Positions 16,102 through 63,753 of a DNA stretch of 64,000 nucleotides are shown one piece after another. Source of the stretch: Siphonodentalium dalli (taxonomy: Eukaryota; Mollusca; Scaphopoda; Gadilida; Siphonodentaliidae); NCBI GenBank assembly GCA_032622095.1, contig CP136069.1, positions 128,197,123-128,261,122 of the forward strand. Reading direction: 5' to 3'. Position 1 is the first letter of the stretch. Each line of letters opens with the position of its first letter. Under the pieces are notes generated by a model that saw only the letters and a program-made list of their open reading frames with translations, had not been told where the DNA came from and did no database searches. Position numbers and translations under genes: made by a program.

Positions 16102-16212
16102 CTGTTGAGAAAATAAAGAAACATGACAGTGACTTGCTCACACCTCCATATTTAACACTTTCTATGCTAAATGGATTCTCCCATTCAGTTCTAAAAGTAT
16201 ACACTGGAACGG

Positions 16213-27433: not shown

Positions 27434-27976
27434 CTAAAAACAATTAATGCACTGGTAACTTAGTGAATGCATAGGAAACTTAGTAATTGTGTTGGAAACT
27501 TAGAAAACGTTCTATAAAACGCATTGTAACACGAAAACCGATCTACACAGGGGGTGTAGTGACAAAAATTGCAGGCATGCACGGGGTAAAATAATTTACC
27601 ATACCTGACCACCCATCTGTGCAAATTTCTTTTTTATATGCCAACTTTTGTGACCCACCCCCAAAAAATATGTCAATCAGAATAATGTGAAACAAAATTA
27701 TATCAGCCTGATTCTTTTCTAGCAATTACTATTTAGCATATTACAACATAATATTACAAACCAAAAACAGTGTAACAGTGGCCACCATTTAAATACTTCT
27801 GATTGAATATATTAAGATGTGCATTACGTATAGGGATTTCATCTGAGGCCGATAACATACACCTCACAATGATAGTGGTACATGTGCACATACACTGTTC
27901 AAGTTTGTTGGACAATGCCCTCCACGTGTCATCCTAATGGACTGGACAGTATGTCAGTGATTGTTTGATTGCTTAT
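27434..27976. other. Upstream of the nvd Rieske exon; no exon recognised
   Basis: This should be nvd intron. A 60-codon minus-strand frame at 27543-27725 has no Rieske-like features. I looked for a minus-strand exon ending in G with the usual N-G-W and cluster-preceding strands and did not find it. Confidence 0.4.
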
Positions 27977-28442
27977 ATATGACCCGCCATATCAAATCCA
28001 GTCGGAAGTCGGGATTTTTTTTACCCTGTGCCAATGCATTCTCTTATATATGCGAGTCGACCATAGGTCGCCTCGCATATATAAGAGAATGCATTGGCCT
28101 AACAATTTTTTATCATTTTTTTTAAATAAATGTTTCTGACAATTTTTAGGACATAAAATAAAAAAACATCCATTACGCTGCAGGGAGCCCCACACATATA
28201 TAGAAGCATATAGAAGAGTGTCGTCTGCTCATGTTTGTCTGGGGCTCTGTATGGGTGAAATTATAAAATTGTTAAACAATGCAAGAAAAAATTATTAAAA
28301 TTGTAAAAAAATTGTTAGGCCAATGCATTCTCTTATATATGCGAGGCGACCTATGGTCGACTCGCATATATAAGAGAATGCATTGGCACAGGGTAAAAAA
28401 AATCCCGACTTCCGACTGGATTTGATATGGCGGGTCACATAT
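27977..28442. mobile_element. 466-bp palindromic element with nested hairpins
   Basis: The arms 27977-28115 and 28305-28442 are inverted copies over about 138 bp with very few differences. Each arm itself contains a hairpin: ATGCATTCTCTTATATATGC with GAGTCGACC, a short loop, then GGTCGCCTCGCATATATAAG and AGAATGCAT. The 190-bp centre is AT-rich. The stem motif is that of family S (1811-2065, 5145-5304), so this may be two S-type elements in head-to-head arrangement or a larger relative. Confidence 0.9.
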
Positions 28443-35905: not shown

Positions 35906-36156
35906 GTCTTTAAACCTACTTTAACGATCTAGTTAAACCGGAGTCAAAGTGGCGTACATATTGTTGTTCGGTAACCAGTTGAATGACAACTTGATTCAAT
36001 TGACTTGACTACCCAGTGACCAATTGGCAAAACACAGCATAATTTGATCAGTACATGCCATCAATTAACGTGAATTGCCCAGCTCGTGATCTCTTGATAC
36101 CTAGCTGTCCTCATATAGTTGTGACAAGACAAACTATAAGTCGGCACTAGCCAGAT

Positions 36157-36785
36157 TTATTAATTAGCTATAGGCTATCGGCCGCAATAAGTAGAACGAT
36201 GCCCGCGTCATAAGTAACAAAAAGGCGGCCAATAAGTAGAAAACGCGGCCAATAAGTAACTAAAAGTCGGCCAATAAGTAGAAAACGCGGCCAATAAGTC
36301 AAGGTGATGTAAATGACGTCATTCGTAATTAGCTCGATCGGCAAATAATATTGGGTCGACGGAAGATAGATTGCAGTTGATTTACGGATGAATTACGGAC
36401 AGTCACTGTTTTTGGGAGTAAATATACATGTACGTGGATGAACTACATGTATCCGTATCAATATCATTCCCGTGCAGTCGAAACTGACAGTACTGTGTAA
36501 TCGCTGAAAGTTCTTCACAAAGTTCACAAGAATACAAATTGCTGGAATAATAGTTAATTTAATAAAACACACAATGGTATATATATGTTAATATATTCAT
36601 CCTGTGAAATAATTTTTACATTGTTGCTAATTAATAAAATACTTATTAATTGGTTGTTTCCACATTGTCCGAGTTATGAGGCCTCGGTCTGTTGTATATT
36701 AGCCTTCGGCCTGCGGCCTCATGCAGGCCAATACGACAGACCTCAGCATCATAACTCGGCCAATATGGAATCAATCAACTAATAA
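36157..36785 (+). mobile_element. Family Y element, copy 2, with terminal palindrome
   Basis: It starts TTATTAATTAGCTATAGGCT and shows the run of CGGCCAATAAGTAG units at 36180-36300, then GATCGGCAAATAATATTGGG and AATAAAACACACAATGG as in the copy at 4384-4932. Here the 3' end is an intact palindrome of about 140 bp (36648-36785): TTAATTGGTTGTTTCCACAT and GAGTTATGAGGCCTCGGTCT, turning at GGCCTGCGGCC, then the imperfect inverse ending AACTAATAA. No coding capacity is seen. Confidence 0.82.
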
Positions 36786-39436: not shown

Positions 39437-41221
39437 TTTGTGACCACAGGTCCTTGACACAATATTAGTCATAACACTAAAAGTAACTAATTATAAGACA
39501 AGCTTCTTAACACTTCGAATTTAAAATTCCCACATGTCCCCAAAACGTGAACATAAATGCAATGATAGATATTAAAATTAAAATATAACGGAAATGTATT
39601 CGTATTCCAATAATAATTCCCTGCAATATGATAATTATGTAGATCAAGTATGTGCATGTACATGTACGGTCAGCTATATACAGTGGAAATATCTTCCCTG
39701 GAACTACTGGAGCAAGCATGTACACGGAAGCGACCATTTGGGGGCTCCCAATCCGAATGTTGCCCCTATGCCCATAATATTCAGGTGTCCTTACCATTGG
39801 CAATACAAGATTTATATGCTGATAATTAGTACCCAGTCTGTCAATGAGGACCGACAAGAGTCAGGGTCGGCATCTTCAACGGGCAAGACACATCAAAGGA
39901 TTCGAAAATCCATGACACTTGGGCACATGACTGTTGTAATAGTGAAGATTGATGAAGATAATAATCCGATGAGAACAACAACTCAGGCCCAGATAGGCGA
40001 CCTTGAAGAGTAGAAGATATCATAGGCTAAATAAAATTTGCATTTGGCGCCTAACTTTTAGGCATGTTTCATTCTGAGCATACATGTATACATAGGATGA
40101 CGTGGCGACGCATCGCCAGGCGATGTGCAACTACGTCATTAATAATTGACCAATAACGAGATTATGCAAGTTGAAACCAATGTTATGTCAACACCAACTA
40201 TCACAGTTTTGTCTAGAGACATCTCCAATGGCGATTGTGATTCAAATATTCAGTTAAAAGTCTGCGTTTGTAGAATATATGTCAATTTTTTTTTATGTGA
40301 GTATTTGGGGGAGGGGGGGGGGGGGCTAAAAATATATATATATATATATATGTCAATGCTTTGACCTTTCCTTGCATTAAATTTTATTAAATAATGGTGC
40401 TATACTTGAAAATATATACAAATAATATATACAGTCACGTGTGCATCATCACGCATAATATAATCATAATACATTGAATTAATTTCCCTGTTCATTTAAG
40501 ATCTTTCTAACATGTATTAATCTATAGTCATTTAATTAACTTGATTTATATATATATATCATATATGTGGTTATTATTAGGTGCGTATTTATATAACAGA
40601 ACACTTTGCCGGGCTGGTCCGGCTCGCCAAGAGTAGAGATCGACGCTGGGCGAGCATGACCAAACTCGGGCCCATGTCAAGTTACATGTTATATACGGAC
40701 CCAAAGCCTACGCTCTATGGTAGATATAATACCATTTACTGCCGAATGAGTTGGCTGTGAGTGGGATGGATCCACCGCATATGCATACACTGTTCTACAT
40801 TTCTGAAAATACGCGTCGGTTACTGGCATAACATCACATCAAAAAGGTACATCTTCGATCGCCCCCTCAGTGCACCCCTGTCGCAATAAAACATCGCGTC
40901 ATTTTGACCTGCACGTGAACAACATGATTCGGTCCACTTGCTCGCTTACTGACCTAGTATCACAGATGTGATTTTATTATCATGCAATGTCGCTGTTTGG
41001 TTCTCTCTTCTAATTCACCGTTTGTTCGAATTAGAGAGAAATTAAAAGAGAATTAGTGATCTAATCACGGAGTAGGTATTATATTGTTGTTCGTGTCTGT
41101 GTAGTTGTCATGAGGTGTCTAATTTACCGAGACTGCTTACTAGTAGACTTTAAGTTAGAGACTTGAATTGAAAGAGGAGAATCGTGGTTTGTTCGAGTTT
41201 TGACGTCACTAGGTCACACCC
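39437..41221. other. Left flank of the satellite element; no recognised gene
   Basis: A 139-codon frame at 39594-40013 (+) overlaps a 116-codon frame on the minus strand at 39507-39857; neither matches a family I know. A G run (40307-40324) followed by a TA microsatellite lies at 40332-40350. Near 41000 AATTCACC...GAATTAGAGAGAA forms a weak hairpin. GTCACA at 41213-41218 may be the left target duplication of the element that starts at 41222. Confidence 0.4.
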
Positions 41222-41294
41222 GGTCCTACTAAAACCCGACCGCACCCGACCGCACCCGACCGCACCCGACCGGACCCGACCGCACCCGACCGGA
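41222..41294 (+). repeat. Left terminus: GGTCCTACT end and six 10-bp repeats
   Basis: After the terminal 13 bases come CCCGACCGCA three times, CCCGACCGGA, CCCGACCGCA and CCCGACCGGA at 41235-41294. The order of variants is the same as at 62428-62487 on the opposite strand. Confidence 0.93.
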
Positions 41295-41297
41295 CCG

Positions 41298-44200
41298 CCC
41301 CCAGGGGTCCGAGCGAGATGGGGTTTGCACTATCGTGTAGAATGGACCCGAATGTACCAAAGTTCCAATCCCCAAGTCGATAGCTCGAGCGGTCACGGCA
41401 CTGTTAACCCCTGACTGGCGGCCGTTTCCGCCAGGTACGGGAAATCCGAAAAGGCGCCGACCGCACCTCCCCTGACTGCCTGACCACGGAAATGGACATT
41501 ATATCATGAAGTGAATACCCATATGCATCCATGGGCGATCGGACAAGTCGCTAGCTGCAGCGGAAGTGAATAAATTAACCCATACGCTGCTGCCGAATTC
41601 GCTATAAATGTACGCAAAAACGCCGAAATTAACACCCGCCGACCGGACCGCCCCTATGGGTCCGAGCGAGATGGGGTTTGCACTATCGTGTAGAATGGAC
41701 CCGAATGTACCAAAGTTCCAATCCCCAAGTCGATAGATCGAGCGGTCACGGCACTGTTAACCCCTGACTGGCGGCCGTTTCCGCCAGGTACGGGAAATCC
41801 GAAAAGGCGCCAACCGCACCTCCCCTGACTGCCTGACCACGGAAATGGACATTATATCATGAAGTGAATACCCATATGCATCCATGGGCGATCGGAAAAG
41901 TCGCTAGCTGCAGCGGAAGTGAATAAATTAACCCATACGCTGCTGCCGAATTCGCTATAAATGTACGCAAAAACGCCGAAATTAACACCCGCCGACCGGA
42001 CCGCCCCTATGGGTCCGAGCGAGATGGGGTTTGCACTATCGTGTAGAATGGACCCGAATGTACCAAAGTTCCAATCCCCAAGTCGATAGCTCGAGCGGTC
42101 ACGGCACTGTTAACCCCTGACTGGCGGCCGTTTCCGCCAGGTACGGGAAATCCGAAAAGGCGCCGACCGCACCTCCCCTGACTGCCTGACCACGGAAATG
42201 GACATTATATATTGAAGTGAATACCCATATGCATCCATGGGCGATCGGACAAGACGCTAGCTGCAGCGGAAGTGAATAAATTAACCCATACGCTGCTGCC
42301 GAATTCGCTATAAATGTACGCAAAAATGCCGAAATTAACACCCGCCGACCGGACCGCCCCTATGGGTCCGATCGTGATGGGGTTTGCACTAACGTGTAGA
42401 ATGGACCCGAATGTACCATAGTTCCAATCCTCAAGTCGATAGCTCGAGCGGTCACGGCACTGTTAACCCCTGACTGGCGGCCGTTTCCGCCAGGTACGGA
42501 AATCCGAAAAGGCGCCGACCGCACCTCCCCTGACTGCCTGACCACGGAAATGGACATTATATCATGAAGTGAATACCCATATGCATCCATGGGCGATCGG
42601 AAAAGTCGCTAGCTGCAGCGGAAGTGAATAAATTAACCCATACGCTGCTGCCGAATTCGCTATAAATGTACGCAAAAACGCCGAAATTAACACCCGCCGA
42701 CCGGACCGCCCCTATGGGTCCGAGCGAGATGGGGTTTGCACTATCGTGTTGAATGGACCCGAATGTACCATAGTTCCAATCCCCAAGTCGATAGATCGAG
42801 CGGTCACGGCACTGTTAACCCCTGACTGGCGGCCGTTTCCGCCAGGTACGGGAAATCCGAAAAGGCGCCGACCGCACCTCCCCTGACTGCCTGACCACGG
42901 AAATGGACATTATATCATGAAGTGAATACCCATATGCATCCATGGGCGATCGGAAAAGTCGCTAGCTGCAGCGGAAGTGAATAAATTAACCCATACGCTG
43001 CTGCCGAATTCGCTATAAATGTACGCAAAAACGCCGAAATTAACACCCGCCGACCGGACCGCCCCTATGGGTCCGAGCGAGATGGGGTTTGCACTATCGT
43101 GTAGAATGGACCCGAATGTACCAAAGTTCCAATCCCCAAGTCGATAGCTCGAGCGGTCACGGCACTGTTAACCCCTGCCTGGCGGCCGTTTCCGCCAGGT
43201 ACGGGAAATCCGAAAAGGCGCCGACCGCACCTCCCCTGACTGCCTGACCACGGAAATGGACATTATATCATGAAGTGAATACCCATATGCATCCATGGGC
43301 GATCGGACAAGACGCTAGCTGCAGCGGAAGTGAATAAATTAACCCATACGCTGCTGCCGAATTCGCTATAAATGTACGCAAAAATGCCGAAATTAACACC
43401 CGCCGACCGGACCGCCCCTATGGGTCCGATCGTGATGGGGTTTGCACTAACGTGTAGAATGGACCCGAATGTACCATAGTTCCAATCCTCAAGTCGATAG
43501 CTCGAGCGGTCACGGCACTGTTAACCCCTGACTGGCGGCCGTTTCCGCCAGGTACGGAAATCCGAAAAGGCGCCGACCGCACCTCCCCTGACTGCCTGAC
43601 CACGGAAATGGACATTATATCATGAAGTGAATACCCATATGCATCCATGGGCGATCGGACAAGTCGCTAGCTGCAGCGGAAGTGAATAAATTAACCCATA
43701 CGCTGCTGCCGAATTCGCTACAAATGTACGCAAAAACGCCGAAATTAACACCCGCCGACCGGACCGCCCCTATGGGTCCGAGCGAGATGGGGTTTGCACT
43801 ATCGTGTTGAATGGACCCGAATGTACCATAGTTCCAATCCCCAAGTCGATAGATCGAGCGGTCACGGCACTGTTAACCCCTGACTGGCGGCCGTTTCCGC
43901 CAGGTACGGGAAATCCGAAAAGGCGCCGACCGCACCTCCCCTGACTGCCTGACCACGGAAATGGACATTATATCATAAAGTGAATACCCATATGCATCCA
44001 TGGGCGATCGGACAAGACGCTAGCTGCAGCGGAAGTGAATACATTAACCCATACGCTGCTGCCGAATTCGCTATAAATGTACGCAAAAATGCCGAAATTA
44101 ACACCCGCCGACCGGACCGCCCCTATGGGTCCGATCGTGATGGGGTTTGCACTATCGTGTAGAATGGACCCGAATGTACCAAAGTTCCAATCCCCAAGTC

Positions 44201-47200
44201 GATAGCTCGAGCGGTCACGGCACTGTTAACCCCTGACTGGCGGCCGTTTCCGCCAGGTACGGGAAATCCGAAAAGGCGCCGACCGCACCTCCCCTGACTG
44301 CCTGACCACGGAAATGGACATTATATCATGAAGTGAATACCCATATGCATCCATGGGCGATCGGACAAGTCGCTAGCTGCAGCGGAAGTGAATAAATTAA
44401 CCCATACGCTGCTGCCGAATTCGCTATAAATGTACGCAAAAACGCCGAAATTAACACCCGCCGACTGGACCGCCCCTATGGGTCCGAGCGAGATGGGGTT
44501 TGCACTATCGTGTTGAATGGATCCGAATGTACCATAGTTCCAATCCCCAAGTCGATAGATCGAGCGGTCACGGCACTGTTAACCCCTGACTGGCGGCCGT
44601 TTCCGCCAGGTACGGGAAATCCGAAAAGGCGCCGACCGCACCTCCCCTGACTGCCTGACCACGGAAATGGACATTATATCATGAAGTGAATACCCATATG
44701 CATCCATGGGCGATCGGACAAGACGCTAGCTGCAGCGGAAGTGAATAAATTAACCCATACGCTGCTGCCGAATTCGCTATAAATGTACGCAAAAATGCCG
44801 AAATTAACACCCGCCGACCGGACCGCCCCTATGGGTCCGATCGTGATGGGGTTTGCACTATCGTGTAGAATGGACCCGAATATACCATAGTTCCAATCCC
44901 CAAGTCGATAGCTCGAGCGGTCACGGCACTGTTAACCCCTGACTGGCGGCCGTTTCCGCCAGGTACGGGAAATCCGAAAAGGCGCCGACCGCACCTCCCC
45001 TGACTGCCTGACCACGGAAATGGACATTATATCATGAAGTGAATACCCATATGCATCCATGGGCGATCGGACAAGTCGCTAGCTGCAGCGGAAGTGAATA
45101 AATTAACCCATACGCTGCTGCCGAATTCGCTATAAATGTACGCAAAAACGCCGAAATTAACACCCGCCGACTGGACCGCCCCTATGGGTCCGAGCGAGAT
45201 GGGGTTTGCACTATCGTGTTGAATGGATCCGAATGTACCATAGTTCCAATCCCCAAGTCGATAGCTCGAGCGGTCACGGCACTGTTAACCCCTGCCTGGC
45301 GGCCGTTTCCGCCAGGTACGGGAAATCCGAAAAGGCGCCGACCGCACCTCCCCTGACTGCCTGACCACGGAAATGGACATTATATCATGAAGTGAATACC
45401 CATATGCATCCATGGGCGATCGGACAAGACGCTAGCTGCAGCGGAAGTGAATAAATTAACCCATACGCTGCTGCCGAATTCGCTATAAATGTACGCAAAA
45501 ATGCCGAAATTAACACCCGCCGACCGGACCGCCCCTATGGGTCCGATCGTGATGGGGTTTGCACTAACGTGTAGAATGGACCCGAATGTACCATAGTTCC
45601 AATCCCCAAGTCGATAGCTCGAGCGGTCACGGCACTGTTAACCCCTGACTGGCGGCCGTTTCCGCCAGGTACGGGAAATCCGAAAAGGCGCCGACCGCAC
45701 CTCCCCTGACTGCCTGACCACGGAAATGGACATTATATCATGAAGTGAATACCCATATGCATCCATGGGCGATCGGAAAAGTCGCTAGCTGCAGCGGAAG
45801 TGAATAAATTAACCCATACGCTGCTGCCGAATTCGCTATAAATGTACGCAAAAACGCCGAAATTAACACCCGCCGACCGGACCGCCCCTATGGGTCCGAG
45901 CGAGATGGGGTTTGCACTATCGTGTTGAATGGACCCGAATGTACCATAGTTCCAATCCCCAAGTCGATAGATCGAGCGGTCACGGCACTGTTAACCCCTG
46001 ACTGGCGGCCGTTTCCGCCAGGTACGGGAAATCCGAAAAGGCGCCGACCGCACCTCCCCTGACTGCCTGACCACGGAAATGGACATTATATCATGAAGTG
46101 AATACCCATATGCATCCATGGGCGATCGGACAAGACGCTAGCTGCAGCGGAAGTGAATAAATTAACCCATACGCTGCTGCCGAATTCGCTATAAATGTAC
46201 GCAAAAATGCCGAAATTAACACCCGCCGACCGGACCGCCCCTATGGGTCCGATCGTGATGGGGTTTGCACTATCGTGTAGAATGGACCCGAATGTACCAT
46301 AGTTCCAATCCCCAAGTCGATAGATCGAGCGGTCACGGCACTGTTAACCCCTGACTGGCGGCCGTTTCCGCCAGGTACGGGAAATCCGAAAAGGCGCCGA
46401 CCGCACCTCCCCTGACTGCCTGACCACGGAAATGGACATTATATCATGAAGTGAATACCCATATGCATCCATGGGCGATCGGAAAAGTCGCTAGCTGCAG
46501 CGGAAGTGAATAAATTAACCCATACGCTGCTGCCGAATTCGCTATAAATGTACGCAAAAACGCCGAAATTAACACCCGCCGACCGGACCGCCCCTATGGG
46601 TCCGAGCGAGATGGGGTTTGCACTATCGTGTAGAATGGACCCGAATGTACCAAAGTTCCAATCCCCAAGTCGATAGCTCGAGCGGTCACGGCACTGTTAA
46701 CCCCTGCCTGGCGGCCGTTTCCGCCAGGTACGGGAAATCCGAAAAGGCGCCGACCGCACCTCCCCTGACTGCCTGACCACGGAAATGGACATTATATCAT
46801 GAAGTGAATACCCATATGCATCCATGGGCGATCGGACAAGACGCTAGCTGCAGCGGAAGTGAATAAATTAACCCATACGCTGCTGCCGAATTCGCTATAA
46901 ATGTACGCAAAAATGCCGAAATTAACACCCGCCGACCGGACCGCCCCTATGGGTCCGATCGTGATGGGGTTTGCACTAACGTGTAGAATGGACCCGAATG
47001 TACCATAGTTCCAATCCTCAAGTCGATAGCTCGAGCGGTCACGGCACTGTTAACCCCTGACTGGCGGCCGTTTCCGCCAGGTACGGAAATCCGAAAAGGC
47101 GCCGACCGCACCTCCCCTGACTGCCTGACCACGGAAATGGACATTATATCATGAAGTGAATACCCATATGCATCCATGGGCGATCGGACAAGTCGCTAGC

Positions 47201-50200
47201 TGCAGCGGAAGTGAATAAATTAACCCATACGCTGCTGCCGAATTCGCTACAAATGTACGCAAAAACGCCGAAATTAACACCCGCCGACCGGACCGCCCCT
47301 ATGGGTCCGAGCGAGATGGGGTTTGCACTATCGTGTTGAATGGACCCGAATGTACCATAGTTCCAATCCCCAAGTCGATAGATCGAGCGGTCACGGCACT
47401 GTTAACCCCTGACTGGCGGCCGTTTCCGCCAGGTACGGGAAATCCGAAAAGGCGCCGACCGCACCTCCCCTGACTGCCTGACCACGGAAATGGACATTAT
47501 ATCATGAAGTGAATACCCATATGCATCCATGGGCGATCGGACAAGACGCTAGCTGCAGCGGAAGTGAATAAATTAACCCATACGCTGCTGCCGAATTCGC
47601 TATAAATGTACGCAAAAATGCCGAAATTAACACCCGCCGACCGGACCGCCCCTATGGGTCCGATCGTGATGGGGTTTGCACTATCGTGTAGAATGGACCC
47701 GAATGTACCAAAGTTCCAATCCCCAAGTCGATAGCTCGAGCGGTCACGGCACTGTTAACCCCTGACTGGCGGCCGTTTCCGCCAGGTACGGGAAATCCGA
47801 AAAGGCGCCGACCGCACCTCCCCTGACTGCCTGACCACGGAAATGGACATTATATCATGAAGTGAATACCCATATGCATCCATGGGCGATCGGACAAGAC
47901 GCTAGCTGCAGCGGAAGTGAATAAATTAACCCATACGCTGCTGCCGAATTCGCTATAAATGTACGCAAAAATGCCGAAATTAACACCCGCCGACCGGACC
48001 GCCCCTATGGGTCCGATCGTGATGGGGTTTGCACTATCGTGTAGAATGGACCCGAATGTACCAAAGTTCCAATCCCCAAGTCGATAGCTCGAGCGGTCAC
48101 GGCACTGTTAACCCCTGACTGGCGGCCGTTTCCGCCAGGTACGGGAAATCCGAAAAGGCGCCGACCGCACCTCCCCTGACTGCCTGACCACGGAAATGGA
48201 CATTATATCATGAAGTGAATACCCATATGCATCCATGGGCGATCGGACAAGACGCTAGCTGCAGCGGAAGTGAATAAATTAACCCATACGCTGCTGCCGA
48301 ATTCGCTATAAATGTACGCAAAAATGCCGAAATTAACACCCGCCGACCGGACCGCCCCTATGTGTCCGATCGTGATGGGGTTTGCACTATCGTGTAGAAT
48401 GGACCCGAATGTACCAAAGTTCCAATCCCCAAGTCGATAGCTCGAGCAGTCACGGCACTGTTAACCCCTGACTGGCGGCCGTTTCCGCCAGGTGCGGGAA
48501 ATCCGAAAAGGCGCCGACCGCACCTCCCCTGACTGCCTGACCACGGAAATGGACATTATATCATGAAGTGAATACCCATATGCATCCATGGGCGATCGGA
48601 CAAGACGCTAGCTGCAGCGGAAGTGAATAAATTAACCCATACGCTGCTGCCGAATTCGCTATAAATGTACGCAAAAATGCCGAAATTAACACCCGCCGAC
48701 CGGACCGCCCCTATGTGTCCGATCGTGATGGGGTTTGCACTATCGTGTAGAATGGACCCGAATGTACCAAAGTTCCAATCCCCAAGTCGATAGCTCGAGC
48801 AGTCACGGCACTGTTAACCCCTGACTGGCGGCCGTTTCCGCCAGGTGCGGGAAATCCGAAAAGGCGCCGACCGCACCTCCCCTGACTGCCTGACCACGGA
48901 AATGGACATTATATCATGAAGTGAATACCCATATGCATCCATGGGCGATCGGTCAAGTCGCTAGCTGCAGCGGAAGTGAATAAATTAACCCATACGCTGC
49001 TGCCGAATTCGCTATAAATGTACGCAAAAACGCCGAAATTAACACCCGCCGACCGGACCGCCCCTATGGGTCCGATCGTGATGGGGTTTGCACTAACGTG
49101 TAGAATGGACCCGAATGTACCATAGTTCCAATCCTCAAGTCGATAGCTCGAGCGGTCACGGCACTGTTAACCCCTGACTGGCGGCCGTTTCCGCCAGGTA
49201 CGGAAATCCGAAAAGGCGCCGACCGCACCTCCCCTGACTGCCTGACCACGGAAATGGACATTATATCATGAAGTGAATACCCATATGCATCCATGGGCGA
49301 TCGGACAAGTCGCTAGCTGCAGCGGAAGTGAATAAATTAACCCATACGCTGCTGCCGAATTCGCTATAAATGTACGCAAAAACGCCGAAATTAACACCCG
49401 CCGACCGGACCGCCCCTATGGGTCCGAGCGAGATGGGGTTTGCACTATCGTGTTGAATGGACCCGAATGTACCATAGTTCCAATCCCCAAGTCGATAGAT
49501 CGAGCGGTCACGGCACTGTTAACCCCTGACTGGCGGCCGTTTCCGCCAGGTACGGGAAATCCGAAAAGGCGCCGACCGCACCTCCCCTGACTGCCTGACC
49601 ACGGAAATGGACATTATATCATGAAGTGAATACCCATATGCATCCATGGGCGATCGGACAAGACGCTAGCTGCAGCGGAAGTGAATAAATTAACCCATAC
49701 GCTGCTGCCGAATTCGCTATAAATGTACGCAAAAATGCCGAAATTAACACCCGCCGACCGGACCGCCCCTATGGGTCCGATCGTGATGGGGTTTGCACTA
49801 TCGTGTAGAATGGACCCGAATGTACCAAAGTTCCAATCCCCAAGTCGATAGCTCGAGCGGTCACGGCACTGTTAACCCCTGACTGGCGGCCGTTTCCGCC
49901 AGGTACGGGAAATCCGAAAAGGCGCCGACCGCACCTCCCCTGACTGTCTGACCACGGAAATGGACATTATATCATGAAGTAAATACCCATATGCATCCAT
50001 GGGCGATCGGACAAGTCGCTAGCTGCAGCGGAAGTGAATAAATTAACCCATACGCTGCTGCCGAATTCGCTATAAATGTACGCAAAAACGCCGAAATTAA
50101 CACCCGCCGAATGGACCGCCCCTATGGGTCCGAGCGAGATGGGGTTTGCACTATCGTGTTGAATGGACCCGAATGTACCATAGTTCCAATCCCCAAGTCG

Positions 50201-53200
50201 ATAGATCGAGCGGTCACGGCACTGTTAACCCCTGACTGGCGGCCGTTTCCGCCAGGTACGGGAAATCCGAAAAGGCGCCGACCGCACCTCCCCTGACTGC
50301 CTGACCACGGAAATGGACATTATATCATGAAGTGAATACCCATATGCATCCATGGGCGATCGGACAAGACGCTAGCTGCAGCGGAAGTGAATAAATTAAC
50401 CCATACGCTGCTGCCGAATTCGCTATAAATGTACGCAAAAATGCCGAAATTAACACCCGCCGACTGGACCGCCCCTATGGGTCCGAGCGAGATGGGGTTT
50501 GCACTATCGTGTTGAATGGACCCGAATGTACCATAGTTCCAATCCCCAAGTCGATAGATCGAGCGGTCACGGCACTGTTAACCCCTGACTGGCGGCCGTT
50601 TCCGCCAGGTACGGGAAATCCGAAAAGGCGCCGACCGCACCTCCCCTGACTGCCTGACCACTGAAATGGACATTATATCATGAAGTGAATACCCATATGC
50701 ATCCATGGGCGATCGGACAAGACGCTAGCTGCAGCGGAAGTGAATAAATTAACCCATACGCTGCTGCCGAATTCGCTATAAATGTACGCAAAAATGCCGA
50801 AATTAACACCCGCCGACCGGACCGCCCCTATGGGTCCGATCGTGATGGGGTTTGCACTAACGTGTAGAATGGACCCGAATGTACCATAGTTCCAATCCCC
50901 AAGTCGATAGCTCGAGCGGTCACGGCACTGTTAACCCCTGACTGGCGGCCGTTTCCGCCAGGTACGGGAAATCCGAAAAGGCGCCGACCGCACCTCCCCT
51001 GACTGTCTGACCACGGAAATGGACATTATATCATGAAGTGAATACCCATATGCATCCATGGGCGATCGGACAAGTCGCTAGCTGCAGCGGAAGTGAATAA
51101 ATTAACCCATACGCTGCTGCCGAATTCGCTATAAATGTACGCAAAAACGCCGAAATTAACACCCGCCGACTGGACCGCCCCTATGGGTCCGAGCGAGATG
51201 GGGTTTGCACTATCGTGTTGAATGGACCCGAATGTACCATAGTTCCAATCCCCAAGTCGATAGATCGAGCGGTCACGGCACTGTTAACCCCTGACTGGCG
51301 GCCGTTTCCGCCAGGTACGGGAAATCCGAAAAGGCGCCGACCGCACCTCCCCTGACTGCCTGACCACGGAAATGGACATTATATCATGAAGTGAATACCC
51401 ATATGCATCCATGGGCGATCGGACAAGACGCTAGCTGCAGCAGAAGTGAATAAATTAACCCATACGCTGCTGCCGAATTCGCTATAAATGTACGCAAAAA
51501 TGCCGAAATTAACACCCGCCGACTGGACCGCCCCTATGGGTCCGAGCGAGATGGGGTTTGCACTATCGTGTTGAATGGACCCGAATGTACCATAGTTCCA
51601 ATCCCCAAGTCGATAGATCGAGCGGTCACGGCACTGTTAACCCCTGACTGGCGGCCGTTTCCGCCAGGTACGGGAAATCCGAAAAGGCGCCGACCGCACC
51701 TCCCCTGACTGCTTGACCACTGAAATGGACATTATATCATGAAGTGAATACCCATATGCATCCATGGGCGATCGGACAAGACGCTAGCTGCAGCGGAAGT
51801 GAATAAATTAACCCATACGCTGCTGCCGAATTCGCTATAAATGTACGCAAAAATGCCGAAATTAACACCCGCCGACCGGACCGCCCCTATGGGTCCGATC
51901 GTGATGGGGTTTGCACTATCGTGTAGAATGGACCCGAATGTACCAAAGTTCCAATCCCCAAGTCGATAGCTCGAGCGGTCACGGCACTGTTAACCCCTGA
52001 CTGGCGGCCGTTTCCGCCAGGTACGGGAAATCCGAAAAGGCGCCGACCGCACCTCCCCTGACTGCCTGACCACGGAAATGGACATTATATCATGAAGTGA
52101 ATACCCATATGCATCCATGGGCGATCGGACAAGACGCTAGCTGCAGCGGAAGTGAATAAATTAACCCATACGCTGCTGCCGAATTCGCTATAAATGTACG
52201 CAAAAATGCCGAAATTAACACCCGCCGACTGGACCGCCCCTATGGGTCCGAGCGAGATGGGGTTTGCACTATCGTGTTGAATGGACCCGAATGTACCATA
52301 GTTCCAATCCCCAAGTCGATAGATCGAGCGGTCACGGCACTGTTAACCCCTGACTGGCGGCCGTTTCCGCCAGGTACGGGAAATCCGAAAAGGCGCCGAC
52401 CGCACCTCCCCTGACTGCCTGACCACTGAAATGGACATTATATCATGAAGTGAATACCCATATGCATCCATGGGCGATCGGACAAGACGCTAGCTGCAGC
52501 GGAAGTGAATAAATTAACCCATACGCTGCTGCCGAATTCGCTATAAATGTACGCAAAAATGCCGAAATTAACACCCGCCGACCGGACCGCCCCTATGGGT
52601 CCGATCGTGATGGGGTTTGCACTAACGTGTAGAATGGACCCGAATGTACCATAGTTCCAATCCCCAAGTCGATAGCTCGAGCGGTCACGGCACTGTTAAC
52701 CCCTGACTGGCGGCCGTTTCCGCCAGGTACGGGAAATCCGAAAAGGCGCCGACCGCACCTCCCCTGACTGTCTGACCACGGAAATGGACATTATATCATG
52801 AAGTGAATACCCATATGCATCCATGGGCGATCGGACAAGTCGCTAGCTGCAGCGGAAGTGAATAAATTAACCCATACGCTGCTGCCGAATTCGCTATAAA
52901 TGTACGCAAAAACGCCGAAATTAACACCCGCCGACTGGACCGCCCCTATGGGTCCGAGCGAGATGGGGTTTGCACTATCGTGTTGAATGGACCCGAATGT
53001 ACCATAGTTCCAATCCCCAAGTCGATAGATCGAGCGGTCACGGCACTGTTAACCCCTGACTGGCGGCCGTTTCCGCCAGGTACGGGAAATCCGAAAAGGC
53101 GCCGACCGCACCTCCCCTGACTGCCTGACCACGGAAATGGACATTATATCATGAAGTGAATACCCATATGCATCCATGGGCGATCGGACAAGACGCTAGC

Positions 53201-56200
53201 TGCAGCGGAAGTGAATAAATTAACCCATACGCTGCTGCCGAATTCGCTATAAATGTACGCAAAAATGCCGAAATTAACACCCGCCGACTGGACCGCCCCT
53301 ATGGGTCCGAGCGAGATGGGGTTTGCACTATCGTGTTGAATGGACCCGAATGTACCATAGTTCCAATCCCCAAGTCGATAGATCGAGCGGTCACGGCACT
53401 GTTAACCCCTGACTGGCGGCCGTTTCCGCCAGGTACGGGAAATCCGAAAAGGCGCCGACCGCACCTCCCCTGACTGCCTGACCACTGAAATGGACATTAT
53501 ATCATGAAGTGAATACCCATATGCATCCATGGGCGATCGGACAAGACGCTAGCTGCAGCGGAAGTGAATAAATTAACCCATACGCTGCTGCCGAATTCGC
53601 TATAAATGTACGCAAAAATGCCGAAATTAACACCCGCCGACCGGACCGCCCCTATGGGTCCGATCGTGATGGGGTTTGCACTATCGTGTAGAATGGACCC
53701 GAATGTACCAAAGTTCCAATCCCCAAGTCGATAGCTCGAGCGGTCACGGCACTGTTAACCCCTGACTGGCGGCCGTTTCCGCCAGGTACGCGAAATCCGA
53801 AAAGGCGCCGACCGCACCTCCCCTGACTGCCTGACCACGGAAATGGACATTATATCATGAAGTGAATACCCATATGCATCCATGGGCGATCGGTCAAGTC
53901 GCTAGCTGCAGCGGAAGTGAATAAATTAACCCATACGCTGCTGCCGAATTCGCTATAAATGTACGCAAAAACGCCGAAATTAACACCCGCCGACTGGACC
54001 GCCCCTATGGGTCCGAGCGAGATGGTGTTTGCACTATCGTGTTGAATGGACCCGAATGTACCATAGTTCCAATCCCCAAGTCGATAGATCGAGCGGTCAC
54101 GGCACTGTTAACCCCTGACTGGCGGCCGTTTCCGCCAGGTACGGGAAATCCGAAAAGGCGCCGACCGCACCTCCCCTGACTGCCTGACCACGGAAATGGA
54201 CATTATATCATGAAGTGAATACCCATATGCATCCATGGGCGATCGGACAAGACGCTAGCTGCAGCGGAAGTGAATAAATTAACCCATACGCTGCTGCCGA
54301 ATTCGCTATAAATGTACGCAAAAATGCCGAAATTAACACCCGCCGACCGGACCGCCCCTATGGGTCCGATCGTGATGGGGTTTGCACTATCGTGTAGAAT
54401 GGATCCGAATGTACCAAAGTTCCAATCCCCAAGTCGATAGCTCGAGCGGTCACGGCACTGTTAACCCCTGACTGGCGGCCGTTTCCGCCAGGTACGGGAA
54501 ATCCGAAAAGGCGCCGACCGCACCTCCCCTGACTGTCTGACCACGGAAATGGACATTATATCATGAAGTGAATACCCATATGCATCCATGGGCGATCGGA
54601 CAAGTCGCTAGCTGCAGCGGAAGTGAATAAATTAACCCATACGCTGCTGCCGAATTCGCTATAAATGTACGCAAAAACGCCGAAATTAACACCCGCCGAC
54701 TGGACCGCCCCTATGGGTCCGAGCGAGATGGGGTTTGCACTATCGTGTTGAATGGACCCGAATGTACCATAGTTCCAATCCCCAAGTCGATAGCTCGAGC
54801 GGTCACGGCACTGTTAACCCCTGACTGGCGGCCGTTTCCGCCAGGTACGGAAATCCGAAAAGGCGCCGACCGCACCTCCCCTGACTGTCTGACCACGGAA
54901 ATGGACATTATATCATGAAGTAAATACCCATATGCATCCATGGGCGATCGGACAAGTCGCTAGCTGCAGCGGAAGTGAATAAATTAACCCATACGCTGCT
55001 GCCGAATTCGCTATAAATGTACGCAAAAATGCCGAAATTAACACCCGCCGACTGGACCGCCCCTATGGGTCCGAGCGAGATGGGGTTTGCACTATCGTGT
55101 TGAATGGACCCGAATGTACCATAGTTCCAATCCCCAAGTCGATAGATCGAGCGGTCACGGCACTGTTAACCCCTGACTGGCGGCCGTTTCCGCCAGGTAC
55201 GGGAAATCCGAAAAGGCGCCGACCGCACCTCCCCTGACTGCCTGACCACTGAAATGGACATTATATCATGAAGTGAATACCCATATGCATCCATGGGCGA
55301 TCGGACAAGACGCTAGCTGCAGCGGAAGTGAATAAATTAACCCATACGCTGCTGCCGAATTCGCTATAAATGTACGCAAAAATGCCGAAATTAACACCCG
55401 CCGACCGGACCGCCCCTATGGGTCCGATCGTGATGGGGTTTGCACTATCGTGTAGAATGGATCCGAATGTACCAAAGTTCCAATCCCCAAGTCGATAGCT
55501 CGAGCGGTCACGGCACTGTTAACCCCTGACTGGCGGCCGTTTCCGCCAGGTACGGGAAATCCGAAAAGGCGCCGACCGCACCTCCCCTGACTGTCTGACC
55601 ACGGAAATGGACATTATATCATGAAGTGAATACCCATATGCATCCATGGGCGATCGGACAAGTCGCTAGCTGCAGCGGAAGTGAATAAATTAACCCATAC
55701 GCTGCTGCCGAATTCGCTATAAATGTACGCAAAAACGCCGAAATTAACACCCGCCGACTGGACCGCCCCTATGGGTCCGAGCGAGATGGGGTTTGCACTA
55801 TCGTGTTGAATGGACCCGAATGTACCATAGTTCCAATCCCCAAGTCGATAGCTCGAGCGGTCACGGCACTGTTAACCCCTGACTGGCGGCCGTTTCCGCC
55901 AGGTACGGGAAATCCGAAAAGGCGCCGACCGCACCTCCCCTGACTGCCTGACCACGGAAATGGACATTATATCATGAAGTAAATACCCATATGCATCCAT
56001 GGGCGATCGGACAAGTCGCTAGCTGCAGCGGAAGTGAATAAATTAACCCATACGCTGCTGCCGAATTCGCTATAAATGTACGCAAAAATGCCGAAATTAA
56101 CACCCGCCGACTGGACCGCCCCTATGGGTCCGAGCGAGATGGGGTTTGCACTATCGTGTTGAATGGACCCGAATGTACCATAGTTCCAATCCCCAAGTCG

Positions 56201-58550
56201 ATAGATCGAGCGGTCACGGCACTGTTAACCCCTGACTGGCGGCCGTTTCCGCCAGGTACGGGAAATCCGAAAAGGCGCCGACCGCACCTCCCCTGACTGC
56301 CTGACCACTGAAATGGACATTATATCATGAAGTGAATACCCATATGCATCCATGGGCGATCGGACAAGACGCTAGCTGCAGCGGAAGTGAATAAATTAAC
56401 CCATACGCTGCTGCCGAATTCGCTATAAATGTACGCAAAAATGCCGAAATTAACACCCGCCGACCGGACCGCCCCTATGGGTCCGATCGTGATGGGGTTT
56501 GCACTATCGTGTAGAATGGACCCGAATGTACCAAAGTTCCAATCCCCAAGTCGATAGCTCGAGCGGTCACGGCACTGTTAACCCCTGACTGGCGGCCGTT
56601 TCCGCCAGGTACGGGAAATCCGAAAAGGCGCCGACCGCACCTCCCCTGACTGCCTGACCACGGAAATGGACATTATATCATGAAGTGAATACCCATATGC
56701 ATCCATGGGCGATCGGACAAGTCGCTAGCTGCAGCGGAAGTGAATAAATTAACCCATACGCTGCTGCCGAATTCGCTATAAATGTACGCAAAAACGCCGA
56801 AATTAACACCCGCCGACTGGACCGCCCCTATGGGTCCGAGCGAGATGGGGTTTGCACTATCGTGTTGAATGGACCCGAATGTACCATAGTTCCAATCCCC
56901 AAGTCGATAGCTCGAGCGGTCACGGCACTGTTAACCCCTGACTGGCGGCCGTTTCCGCCAGGTACGGGAAATCCGAAAAGGCGCCGACCGCACCTCCCCT
57001 GACTGTCTGACCACGGAAATGGACATTATATCATGAAGTAAATACCCATATGCATCCATGGGCGATCGGACAAGTCGCTAGCTGCAGCGGAAGTGAATAA
57101 ATTAACCCATACGCTGCTGCCGAATTCGCTATAAATGTACGCAAAAATGCCGAAATTAACACCCGCCGACTGGACCGCCCCTATGGGTCCGAGCGAGATG
57201 GGGTTTGCACTATCGTGTTGAATGGACCCGAATGTACCATAGTTCCAATCCCCAAGTCGATAGATCGAGCGGTCACGGCACTGTTAACCCCTGACTGGCG
57301 GCCGTTTCCGCCAGGTACGGGAAATCCGAAAAGGCGCCGACCGCACCTCCCCTGACTGCCTGACCACTGAAATGGACATTATATCATGAAGTAAATACCC
57401 ATATGCATCCATGGGCGATCGGACAAGTCGCTAGCTGCAGCGGAAGTGAATAAATTAACCCATACGCTGCTGCCGAATTCGCTATAAATGTACGCAAAAA
57501 TGCCGAAATTAACACCCGCCGACCGGACCGCCCCTATGGGTCCGATCGTGATGGGGTTTGCACTAACGTGTAGAATGGACCCGAATGTACCATAGTTCCA
57601 ATCCCCAAGTCGATAGCTCGAGCGGTCACGGCACTGTTAACCCCTGACTGGCGGCCGTTTCCGCCAGGTACGGGAAATCCGAAAAGGCGCCGACCGCACC
57701 TCCCCTGACTGTCTGACCACGGAAATGGACATTATATCATGAAGTGAATACCCATATGGGCGATCGGTCAAGTCGCTAGCTGCAGCGGAAGTGAATAAAT
57801 TAACCCATACGCTGCTGCCGAATTCGCTATAAATGTACGCAAAAACGCCGAAATTAACACCCGCCGACTGGACCGCCCCTATGGGTCCGAGCGAGATGGG
57901 GTTTGCACTATCGTGTTGAATGGACCCGAATGTACCATAGTTCCAATCCCCAAGTCGATAGATCGAGCGGTCACGGCACTGTTAACCCCTGACTGGCGGC
58001 CGTTTCCGCCAGGTACGGGAAATCCGAAAAGGCGCCGACCGCACCTCCCCTGACTGCCTGACCACGGAAATGGACATTATATCATGAAGTGAATACCCAT
58101 ATGCATCCATGGGCGATCAGACAAGACGCTAGCTGCAGCGGAAGTGAATAAATTAACCCATACGCTGCTGCCGAATTCGCTATAAATGTACGCAAAAATG
58201 CCGAAATTAACACCCGCCGACCGGACCGCCCCTATGGGTCCGATCGTGATGGGGTTTGCACTATCGTGTAGAATGGACCCGAATGTACCAAAGTTCCAAT
58301 CCCCAAGTCGATAGCTCGAGCGGTCACGGCACTGTTAACCCCTGACTGGCGGCCGTTTCCGCCAGGTACGGGAAATCCGAAAAGGCGCCGACCGCACCTC
58401 CCCTGACTGCCTGACCACGGAAATGGACATTATATCATGAAGTGAATACCCATATGCATCCATGGGCGATCGGACAAGTCGCTAGCTGCAGCGGAAGTGA
58501 ATAAATTAACCCATACGCTGCTGCCGAATTCGCTATAAATGTACGCAAAA
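41298..58550 (+). repeat. Satellite array, about 48.9 monomers of 352-353 bp
   Basis: Counting from CCCCTATGGGTCCGA, monomers start at 41298 (variant), 41651, 42004, 42357, 42709, 43062 and so on to 58229; the last is cut after GTACGCAAAA at 58550. The usual length is 353 bp; monomers with TACGGAAAT in place of TACGGGAAAT are 352 bp. Identity between monomers is very high, with a small set of recurring variants (GAGCGAG or GATCGTG; GTGTAGAAT or GTGTTGAAT; AGTCGCT or AGACGCT; ACGCCG or ATGCCG). The array is clearly GC-richer than its surroundings. One monomer near 57757 lacks 8 bp (CATCCATG). Confidence 0.98.
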
Positions 58551-61512
58551 GCGGTTATGTCCACTTACCTCACCGTTACATATCCATAAAAATAGTCCAC
58601 ATGACAGTTAATCCTTATATTTATATACATTTAGCGAAAAAGCCGCTTTTGTAAATATATTTAAATCGAAAAGTGTATCGTGACAAGATCAGCCCAAAAT
58701 ACCCAATAGCACCCTTGGCAAAAGTTAATAGGAACAATTTCTCTTCATGTTGAAACCCGATGATGTATTAAGTCAATCCTGCGCGAGTCAAAATGCGCCC
58801 AAAGCATTACGCGTTCGTCTTTCCAAACCTAATGACGTATCGATGGTGTTATTAGCTTGGTGTTATGATGCGTTACGCATTCACCGAGAAATAACTGCAA
58901 CTAGCCACGTGGGCGCCGACCAATCAGAATGCTGGATTTAGTGATGACAACACTTAGTGTGTAAATATATGTATTTGATCATCAGGAGGCATGACTTGGA
59001 ATAGTAAACAGGGAAGTGAAAAAAGAACTCAATGCGGAAGTGAAACGTCTGATACATTCACCAGAGTATTGCGCGCGCATAAAAATTCACCGATAACTTT
59101 GGAAATAGTGTTACTCCGTGACGTCACATTGTCCCGGTAATTCCAGGATTATAATGTGACAGCTTTTGTTCAATCAGAAATAGTGTTAGTTATATAAAGG
59201 ATGGATAATAAAACATATTATTGATCAACCGTAACCTGCATATATATCAAAAGATAACTAGTATTAAATCGTGCCATATGTAAAGTATCCAAATATATTA
59301 ATTGCGTATTGAATCAGATGATGTTTTGATAACAATCAGCTCTATGTGTAAATTAGTCTCTGATCATCAAGAGATTAGTTGGCTTCAGAAAAGAGTGACA
59401 CATATTAAGCTGACTGGGGATTATAACAGTGCACGTCGTGTAATGATGTGGGAGCCTTCACCTAGGTTATTTCTCTCCAATAATACTTGTTTATGCGTGC
59501 ATAGTTGTATTTATTGTAGGAGTGCATCATTTTCTTCATGGTTGCAATGGTGTCGCAACACGATGGACTTGCGCACACATGTCGCCAATACATCACCTTT
59601 GTTCCCGCCGAATGTTGGTGTGGAACAAATATTGTTTTCTAAGCACCCCCCCCCCCCCACACACACACACGTTGAACTGAACATAATGCGTCGTAACAAC
59701 CATCATATATGTAATGTGTTAATTGGAATATAATAATGATATTGCATAATTGAATGAGTTGAGTTGAGTTATTTTTTCTTTAATGCACATGTCTTTATTT
59801 CCTCTTTGGTTGTGATAAAGAAATCATTATGAATTGTTTAACCCCAGCCGTCTTTGTGTCGTTTCCCCAAGCTACAATGTGATTTAGTGATAAAGATGGA
59901 TATAAAATTCGTCGCAAATCAATCAGATTCAATACTCAATTTATTAACCTCGTCCACTAAATTAGATTCGAGCCCCGCTTGATAAATCTCGACTTTAAAT
60001 GGAATTTATTGCAATCGGCCAATATATTTCGTATAGTTTCGAGTTATTGATATCGGCATGCCAGTCGTCAATACAAAATTTAGTTGGCTACTGGAGAGTA
60101 AATGTGTTGTTCAGAAATAAATATTCGTTTCTCCGTTCGATACGGTTACTGGAATCCATATAGCTACCCGTACCGCAACACGTGTTGCAACCACAAACTG
60201 TTTTACAGGAATAATTCAGCGCATCGACTGTACTGGTATAGTGTGAGCAAATTGAAAAAACATTGATATATGGTGCAGACAAATTGTTAATCGCATTCGC
60301 TTTATTGGCAGATATACGTATCGTTATGGATTATTGGACAATTTAAAATTAAATGGCTGACATGTTGGCAACATTTCAAACAATTGGATTTTACAAATAA
60401 TTTCATAGACTATTCGAATGTTGGATTTTCCAGACTGAGAAAATAGGTTATGATTGCTCGAACATACAATTCCGTTAGCTAGCTTGTCCAATCAATATTC
60501 GACTCGCTCAAAATCATTCGTACAAAAAGATTTTTGGTGTCATGCTTTACTATACTATCAGATAATACCAAACATCATAACTATAAATTCGCGAATAACG
60601 GAGAAACAAACAGTAGTTATCTAAACTGCATTAGCAACTTTCCGTTAGTATATATCAACCTTAAAATATAAATCAAATTGTTCCCTTACCTTCGGCTTCA
60701 CCGTCGCAAACAGAACATGGATATATGACCATAACTGGTAGAACTCGTGGTGGTCGCATTATGATAAAATCAAGATGTCGATTTGACACAATTTAGAAAG
60801 TAACCATTTTATATATCAATGCAACTATATCATTGGTTCATTCCATTGGTTGCAAATTACATTCGACTGGGTTTCTTGCCATGTACACGAAGCCATCATG
60901 CATCTCAATCGTCCCACGGATGAGGCCAAGGTTCATAATCCGATTTTAAAATCTCTTAATCTGATCATGTTTTAAATCCCAATTAATTCGCACGATCGTA
61001 TAACTACTGTCGAAACCAATTCCTATAAAAACACGTACAATTGATACATGTACATTATTCATGATTATTTATTGTAACGAAAACAGCCAAAAGTAAATCG
61101 GACGAGAACTCGAAGTAAATTAGTTAATCACTGGACTGATAATCACAAGGGATTCACCAAAATAAATAAATTAATTGAATTTAAGTCCGTGGTGACGAAT
61201 GTGACACCTCGCTATAATCCATACACAATGTCACATGCAGTGCTTTGAATAGCTTACCACTTTAAGTCACTACACATGCGACTATCATGACCTGAACCAT
61301 GTTGATTTATAATAAATAAACATGGGGTTACCCCCCCCCCCCCCACATTCACATATTCAGTTGTTTTATAATTAATTTTTGCATGTACCATAAAGAAAAT
61401 TATCCGGGTCTCATACATATGTGTTTCAATTGATATGTTATCACTCACCTCGTATACGTTTTCGAATATCGGTGTTGATCTAGCAGGACCAGAATACACT
61501 CTTCGCTGCATG
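58551..61512. other. Central non-satellite segment of the 21-kb element
   Basis: It begins abruptly after the last left-arm monomer and ends where a diverged inverted monomer begins. The longest frame is 143 codons at 59302-59733 (+), without transposase or other recognised motifs; 64-codon frames at 58747-58941 (+) and 60088-60282 (-) are likewise unassigned. A C run with (AC)n lies at 59646-59671 and a C run at 61331-61344. If the 21-kb unit is one transposon, this is its only non-repetitive part. Confidence 0.55.
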
Positions 61513-61746
61513 ATATGATGTCCATTTCCGTGGTCGTGCAACCAAGGAAAATGCGGTTTGTGCCTTTTTGGATTTCGCGTACCCGTGGAACCGGTCGCAA
61601 ATTAGCGGTTAACAGTGCCATATCCACCCGAGCTATCGACTTGGGGGTTGGAACTATGGTCCATTCGGGTCCATTCTACACGTTAGTGCAAACCCCATCA
61701 CGCTCGGACTCATAGGAGCGGTCCGGTCGGCGGGTGTTAATTTCGG
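61513..61746 (-). repeat. Diverged satellite monomer, inverted, inner edge
   Basis: Sequence from TGATATGATGTCCATTTCCG to GTGTTAATTTCGGCATTTTT matches the inverse of the monomer. It is close to the consensus nearest the intact copies (61650-61746) and far more diverged toward 61513, with many substitutions. Satellite similarity stops near 61510. Confidence 0.85.
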
Positions 61747-62427
61747 CATTTTTGCGTACATTTATAGCGAATTCGGCAGCAGCGTATGGGTTAATTTATT
61801 CACTTCCGCTGCAGCTAGCGACTTGTCCGATCGCCCATGGATGCATATGGGTATTCACTTCATGATATAATGTCCATTTCCGTGGTCAGGCAGTCAGGGG
61901 AGGTGCGGTCGGCGCCTTTTCGGATTTCCCGTACCTGGCGGAAACGGCCGCCAGTCAGGGGTTAACAGTGCCGTGACCGCTCGAGCTATCGACTTGGGGA
62001 TTGGAACTTTGGTACATTCGGGTCCATTCTACACGATAGTGCATACCCCATCACGCTCGGACCCACAGGGGCGGTCCGGTCGGCGGGTGTTAATTTCGGC
62101 GTTTTTGCGTACATTTATAGCGAATTCGGCAGCATCGTATGGGTTAATTTATTCACTTCCGCTGCAGCTAGCGACTTGTCCGATCGCCCATGGATGCATA
62201 TGGGTATTCACTTCATGATATAATGTCCATTTCCGTGGTCAGGCAGTCAGTGGAGGTGCGGTCGGCGCCTTTTTGGATTTCTCGTACCTGGCGGAAACGG
62301 CCGCCAGTCAGGGGTTAACAGTGCCGTGACCGCTCGAGCTATCGACTTGGGGATTGGAACTTTGGTACATTCGGGTCCATTCTACACGATAGTGCAAACC
62401 CCATCTCGCTCGGACCCCTGGGGGCGG
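61747..62427 (-). repeat. Two satellite monomers in inverted orientation
   Basis: Two near-consensus copies (about 61747-62099 and 62100-62427) in opposite orientation to the array at 41298-58550. The outer one carries the same CCCCAGGGGTCC terminal variant as the first left-arm monomer. Confidence 0.95.
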
Positions 62428-62500
62428 TCCGGTCGGGTGCGGTCGGGTCCGGTCGGGTGCGGTCGGGTGCGGTCGGGTGCGGTCGGGTTTTAGTAGGACC
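62428..62500 (-). repeat. Right terminus: six 10-bp repeats and AGTAGGACC end
   Basis: Exact inverse of 41222-41294, including the order of the two 10-bp variants. GTCACA follows at 62502-62507. Confidence 0.93.
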
Positions 62501-63302
62501 CGTCACATCTGTTCGAAAATGTTTGGCTGTTTCTTTTCGCAAGGTTTTTGATTTAAAGATTTGTTCTAAATATGACAATACGAGACAGTTCTTTCGTCAA
62601 CACCAGTCTATCATGGGCAGCAACTATAGAATGCATCTAGGTAAGTTATCTTCTGTATTTGTATACGCGTGCAGGTCTAAAGACGGCCCACGGCAACAGG
62701 GATGTCGATTTGATTTGCATAGATGGGTGGGGGTGGCACTGAGTTACGATTGGTTCCCCTATATAGTAAAAGTAGAACTTACCGTAACAGTATGTTGACA
62801 TTTACATAACAATGGTTTCAATACATAGAGGACACCTATGTTTTTTGAGTGAATACATAATTATTTCATGAGTGACTAGCAGTGGAAATATCAATTTTCA
62901 TCGAGCGACCGCAGGACGCGCGAGTCCAAATCCATATTTAATAAATAAATAAAACATCTACATGTATATGTATAGGTGTTCTATTTATTTATGCTTCAAC
63001 CATGTAGATAATTATTATTTGTAATGCTTAAAGTTGCTAAATTATGCAGCATTTCACTTATAATAGCACAGCAAATTAAACAATACACGGAACCGATCAG
63101 CTGATAGGTAGCCTAGTACACAGGCCAGAAAACGGGCGAGTAGCAGGAGTTGGGACAGTGTACCAATCTACTGATAGGTAGCAAACCGCTTTCAAGTGAT
63201 GACGTCAATCGACAAGCCACAGTATAGCTTATTTTACCGGAAGTATATAAGCGACAGTGAAGATATCATTTTGTAAAATCTAGACACTAAATACGATATT
63301 TA
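62501..63302. other. Right flank of the satellite element; no recognised gene
   Basis: CTGATAGGTAGC occurs near 63101 and again near 63171, a weak local duplication. No exon or known element was recognised. Confidence 0.4.
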
Positions 63303-63753
63303 CGTTTATAGTGCCTTGATATACGGTGTTAATAACAATCTATGCCATAAAATATTATAAAAATACTATAATTCATCAGCATGTGAAACGTTTGTGTCTC
63401 AGACGATGCGCATAGAGAAATAGAAAACAGCTGAAATTATAGAAAGATTTCCCCCATTATGGGTCCCAAAATGCAACAATATTCAAACTAAAGATGTATT
63501 CTCAATGGAACCGCAATAATAACTCTATATCTTAAAAAATAGAGTTACTCCCCTTCCGTTGAAAATAATGAAATAGTACAAAACACAAGTCGGTATGTCA
63601 ACAAAACAACATGTCCACAGTTTATTACACCGAATAAGTTGATAATACAATGTTTTGGAGCTTCTTTTTTCAAATGGTATCTATCTATATAATATGTCAT
63701 AATTATATTTTATATAAAATTATCTGGGCGTTCGAAAATTAAGTGGGCCTTTG
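63303..63753 (-). mobile_element. Family A element, inverted copy 4
   Basis: It ends CGTTCGAAAATTAAGTGGGCCTTT at 63753, the inverse of the family A start, and contains the inverses of TGTTATTAA...ATATCAAGGCACTATA (63306-63332), GGGGGAAAT and GAGAAACCGACTTGTG-type blocks. The other terminal repeat is missing or degraded. Confidence 0.75.

Follow-up and report, generated by a model that had tools for sequence, protein, structure and literature searches.

How satellite DNA arises is mostly deduced from remnants that have already decayed. Can a satellite array instead be caught growing inside the arm of a transposon, with the ends of that transposon still in place? The 64-kb window examined here—that is, the whole stretch of DNA that was analysed, at its full length—raises this question, as a single locus within it preserves the 10-bp motif of the ends, the ~176-bp unit that opens with this motif, a 353-bp dimer, a higher-order arrangement of monomers and both transposon-like ends.

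The general route from transposon to satellite has already been established for Tetris, a foldback transposon of Drosophila virilis (PMC4079207). That work appeared in 2014 and thus the transposon–satellite link for which the original prediction had hoped was, as far as the general route goes, already known; the element described here would extend that route rather than found it. Below we document the anatomy of the locus, weigh rival accounts of its origin and compare it with known systems.

Anatomy of the element

The candidate element occupies positions 41222–62500 of the window (Table 1) and shows 218 bp of exact inverse identity when read inward from both ends, with 10 mismatches between the inverted ends over the first 700 bp (ungapped). 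The left end opens with GGTCCTACTAAAA at 41222; six units of 10 bp follow (sites 41237–41296), of the types C, C, C, G, C and G in turn, and after them come monomers; the right end, with 62500 as its last base, is its exact inverse. With up to three mismatches allowed, the 17-bp end GGTCCTACTAAAACCCG has no occurrence in the 64 kb beyond those at the element's own ends (shuffle control: mean 0.15, largest 1). Beyond these ends, the left and right outer flanks differ and both are unique.

Table 1. Positions of the element's parts and of the candidate target-site duplication within the window.
Feature	Position	Strand	Description
Left copy, candidate target-site duplication	41213–41220	+	GTCACA (41213–41218) or GTCACACC
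Left terminus	41222–41285	+	GGTCCTACTAAAA and tandem 10-bp units
Sixth CGACCGSACC site of left terminus	41287–41296		Start of monomer L01
Left arm	41286–58550	+	49 tandem 353-bp monomers, L01–L49; 17,265 bp
Core	58551–61512	.	AT-rich, single-copy; 2,962 bp
Right arm	61513–62436	-	Inverted monomers R3, R2 and R1 (~2.6 monomers)
Right terminus	62437–62500	-	Left terminus inverted, exact
Right copy, candidate target-site duplication	62502–62509	+	GTCACA (62502–62507) or GTCACATC

The structural claims of the original prediction are borne out by this anatomy. The ends had been described as exact inverses, each with a 13-bp terminus and an identical succession of six 10-bp units, and are so over 218 bp; satellite monomers do run inward from both, 49 on the left and ~2.6 on the right; and a variant monomer was said to be common to both ends, as it proves to be. 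Two variants, 23C and 25G, are carried by the outermost monomers L01 and R1, and none of the remaining 50 monomers out of 52 (L02–L49, R2 and R3) has either. Since the array state is present in R2 and R3 too, it is probably the terminal state that is derived.

The nearest monomer to R1 is L01, at four differences (next nearest, eight), and a maximum-likelihood tree pairs them as sisters, at a node printed without a support value. From the side of L01, R1 is no closer than five monomers of the array (four differences each), since R1 carries four private changes. Terminus and outermost monomer thus go back to one ancestral end, or have been homogenised with each other apart from the array.

These comparisons bear on whether the right arm might be no more than an inverted piece of the left array, misplaced during assembly. 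Misassembly is common in long arrays, yet neither R1 nor R2 has an exact match on the left (best four and three differences, respectively), while R3—a partial and diverged monomer, the others in the right arm being full or nearly full—stands at 84% identity. The right arm also possesses its own outer flank and its own core junction, and the window contains no N, all of which makes such an artefact scarcely credible.

The two arms measure 17.3 kb and ~1 kb, and pairing between them is therefore possible over ~1 kb only. Between the core and the rest of the 64-kb window no long repeat was found. All 19 ORFs of at least 50 aa that overlap the core were scanned against Pfam and none matched at the cut-off, so that neither a transposase nor any recognised domain or gene was found among them; one ORF gave two weak matches below the cut-off (E 0.07–0.08) and the rest gave nothing at E 0.1. 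There was no Rfam match at the gathering score.

Candidate target-site duplication

The hexamer GTCACA is present on both sides but does not touch the exact inverted ends, lying three bases away on the left and one base away on the right. A symmetric 8-bp reading (GTCACACC/GTCACATC) matches at 7/8 positions and gives the element a span of 21,281 bp. Random flanks drawn from the window match as well in proportions of 0.006 (6-bp reading) and 0.003 (8-bp reading), both readings having been chosen after looking at the sequence. The target-site duplication is a weak candidate, short and imperfectly placed. Set against the criteria for Mutator elements such as Tm1 and Phantom (duplications of 8–10 bp), the 8-bp reading fits with one mismatch, and no transposase was found in the core.

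An account that dispenses with a transposon is that the edge of a satellite array underwent a local inverted duplication, after which rearrangement placed unique sequence between the copies. Only one copy of the structure is seen, its arms are unequal and its inner boundaries are unrelated (monomer position 340 on the left, where the last monomer, L49, is cut, versus about 236 on the right), all of which would suit such an event. We nonetheless consider it very unlikely, as the exact inverse match stops at both ends, where the flanks differ, the terminal monomers differ from the array and a candidate target-site duplication is present.

The terminal motif within the monomer

The motif CGACCGSACC occurs 95 times in 64 kb, against an expectation of 0.10, and not once outside the element. 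Its orientation follows the arms, with 85 copies on the plus strand in the left arm and 10 on the minus strand in the right. Six copies stand in tandem at each end and the rest—including 79 left-arm sites beyond the six of the terminus—fall at monomer positions 8 and 179, giving spacings of 171 and 182 bp. Among 10,000 dinucleotide shuffles of the monomer, none contained two copies, as the real monomer does, and 40 contained one. The plain 353-bp monomer shares nine 8-mers, six 9-mers and four 10-mers with the terminus, counts equalled by 2, 9 and 11 of 10,000 shuffles, respectively. Gapped local alignment of terminus and monomer rises weakly above chance (equalled by 23/500 shuffles), and the link between the two therefore rests on the motif.

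Aligned with one another, the monomer halves score better than any of 1,000 shuffles, with or without the part that holds the motif. The halves are homologous and the 353-bp monomer is therefore an old dimer whose ~176-bp unit starts with CGACCGSACC. The predicted derivation of the satellite from the terminus is supported, at this one locus, by the motif and the dimer structure; the plain terminus–monomer alignment lies only weakly above chance.

Selection on the motif was not seen: its conservation is no better than that of the remaining monomer columns (3/20 motif columns polymorphic versus 32/333 in the rest of the monomer, P 0.43), and the first site has been lost from 17/49 left monomers.

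The same evidence bears on a third account, in which the satellite already existed and was taken up by a transposon with unrelated ends, or expanded inside such a transposon by chance, so that the array owes nothing to the terminus. The weak alignment between terminus and monomer, the unexceptional conservation of the motif and the occurrence of internal satellite arrays in bivalve Helitrons (as described in the accessible text of PMC8268682) lend it some weight. However, the terminus joins the monomer at the same position in both arms and the shuffles, as noted above, never produced a monomer with two exact copies of the motif, and we judge capture unlikely.

As separate observations, each 353-bp monomer holds a short hairpin (CTGGCGG/CCGCCAG) and the monomer (e.g. 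41986–42338) contains a TATA-box-like CGCTATAAATG. Single-strand folding of one monomer gave z -1.55, with 5/100 shuffles folding as well.

Growth of the left array

Similarity between monomers was compared at lags 1 to 20 with that in permuted order (5,000 permutations). Similarity at lags 3 and 16 exceeds that of the permuted arrays (equalled by 0 and 1 of 5,000, respectively), and both signals survive correction for 20 tests, while lags 6, 8 and 13 are only nominally significant (P 0.004, 0.003 and 0.009). Adjacent monomers of the left array are less alike than in permuted order (P 0.003). Identical monomers occur as pairs in register—L06/L16 with L07/L17, and L27/L32 with L28/L33—and several variants are regional, with 265A confined to L02–L15, 200T, 209T and 234A to L25–L47, and 12T to L10–L48. 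This higher-order pattern fits block duplication or unequal exchange better than the arrival of one homogeneous array. Directional growth toward the core was not significant (rank correlation 0.23, permutation P 0.06).

A model for the element

From about 41221 to 62501, this stretch is probably a non-autonomous, foldback-like, cut-and-paste transposon, the arm repeats of which have multiplied in place into a satellite array. Structurally, its long inverted ends carry tandem repeats, with monomers in both arms, as in foldback-like elements. That it is a single element with inverted ends of satellite DNA, as originally predicted, is favoured by the ends themselves, the variants of L01 and R1, the arm-oriented motif and the weak duplication. 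Mobility is unproven, because there is one copy, a short and imperfect duplication and no transposase in the core; the 64-kb window holds just that one copy of the element, and one copy cannot show movement.

How such an element would work is inferred, both in its binding by a transposase and its mobility and in the sequence of the steps given here. A transposase supplied from elsewhere would recognise GGTCCTACTAAAA together with the six tandem CGACCGSACC units, and perhaps also the motif copies spaced 171 and 182 bp apart along the arms. The motif would have become the start of a ~176-bp unit, that unit would have given rise to the 353-bp dimer, and dimers would have formed a short array in both arms. 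Afterwards, the left arm alone would have expanded in place, through unequal exchange or block duplication, into the 17-kb satellite array. By analogy with Galileo (PMC3688188), the motif may be a transposase-binding site, an inferred role against which stand its lack of extra conservation and the loss of the first site from 17/49 left monomers. Plausibly, additional sites were of use to short arms, and the arms lengthened afterwards by ordinary satellite expansion. In the text available to us, the Tetris authors propose the same history for Tetris, with added sites early and satellite expansion later (PMC4079207).

The element suggests that a satellite can grow inside a transposon arm. We entertain more tentatively, and with some doubt, the stronger proposition that this is a transposon in the course of becoming a satellite, with intact ends, a 17-kb array, each half-monomer a present or former end signal, the motif setting the ~176-bp period and the arm carrying or seeding satellite at new loci. 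If other copies show the same ends and differing monomer numbers, growth of the satellite within the arm could be traced stepwise, and the role of end-binding sites in setting the satellite unit would then be open to binding assays.

Comparison with known systems

In Drosophila Foldback (FB) elements the inverted ends consist of nested short tandem units; unit sequence, unit size and duplication length probably all differ from those of the element described here.

The nearest system is Tetris, which, from the portions of its description available, resembles our element in its repeat-bearing TIRs, non-coding middle, repeat–terminus link and satellite arrays (PMC4079207). Tetris has long TIRs with ~220-bp tandem repeats and a non-coding middle, and its transposase is reported there as not found; a 37-bp stretch is common to the outer TIR and the repeat, target-site duplications measure 8–10 bp, and the repeats build up satellite-like arrays in which as many as 66 copies are present (PMC4079207). 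In the same text, complete copies hold few repeats and the long arrays are seen in other contigs or by fibre-FISH, whereas here a single sequence contains both ends with 49 monomers between them (PMC4079207). The repeats themselves, compared by unit length and GC content alone, also differ: TIR-220 is given as 218 bp and about 70% AT (PMC4079207), while our monomer is 353 bp and 54% GC. Unlike the Tetris repeat as there described, the repeat here has two copies of the terminal 10-bp unit, at a constant phase.

Galileo, a foldback-like member of the P superfamily with 7-bp duplications and a known transposase, is described in the accessible parts of two reports as having TIRs of up to about 1.25 kb with 2–3 repeats, including ~210-bp repeats in one subfamily (PMC3688188, PMC3573991). 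On that evidence, it shares with our element long TIRs, tandem repeats and a copy number that is unequal between the two TIRs of one element (PMC3688188, PMC3573991), and gel-shift assays place binding sites of the THAP domain of its transposase within the TIR repeats (PMC3688188, same portions). No sequence link was found between Galileo and our element. Pfam recognised no P-type transposase among the 19 core ORFs, a negative of limited weight for an element that looks non-autonomous.

Tm1, a Mutator/foldback family of root-knot nematodes with 14-bp units and 9-bp duplications, has composite TIRs built, as here, from a variable number of short tandem units, and its short, unequal bases outside the inverted repeat recall loosely those at our locus; the available text of that study describes no satellite array for Tm1, unlike the element here (PMC3169594). 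Oyster Helitron/Helentron elements are reported to carry satellite arrays and so, like our locus, place an array inside a mobile-element-like unit, but the array in the accessible description is central and the ends are without long inverted repeats, whereas here the array is itself an inverted end (PMC8268682). A Helitron or Helentron reading of our locus was rejected, because such elements have unlike 5′ and 3′ ends that lack long inverted repeats and both ends here are one sequence, inverted.

Among the titles and abstract openings listed in literature searches, which were weighted to open-access texts, none describes an array of this length bounded on both sides by complete foldback ends. 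Exact patterns for the terminus, the 10-bp tandem and the monomer had no match in viral and prokaryotic contig collections holding few animal sequences; as the records searched were viral and prokaryotic, the absence of matches says little.

Other features of the window

Several further repeats lie elsewhere in the window. An inverted pair at 18605–18809 and 21276–21485 (about 205–210 bp, 96% identical) has GTGTGTCTTTTTACCGGATTCCGGATT at both outer ends and may represent two opposite small elements or one. Between its members, reverse-transcriptase-like ORFs can be read from the letters at 18887–19846; these gave no Pfam match, and a homolog search with the ORF at 18887–19363 found none. A second inverted pair, at 27975–28442 (about 146 bp, 97% identical, with a palindrome in each arm), looks like a small foldback element or MITE. 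A dispersed repeat family is represented at 3977–4387, 7690–8135, 25207–25712 and about 63305–63700, with copies 75–83% alike, and a 488-bp dispersed repeat at 4383–4864 and 36156–36635 (91% identical) has 42-bp tandem units in each copy. On the minus strand, an ORF at 15845–16213 has a weak match, below the cut-off, to KshA_C, a Rieske oxygenase C-terminal domain (E 0.0084), which together with the reverse-transcriptase-like ORFs points to an animal source; the ORF may form an exon of a gene resembling Neverland.
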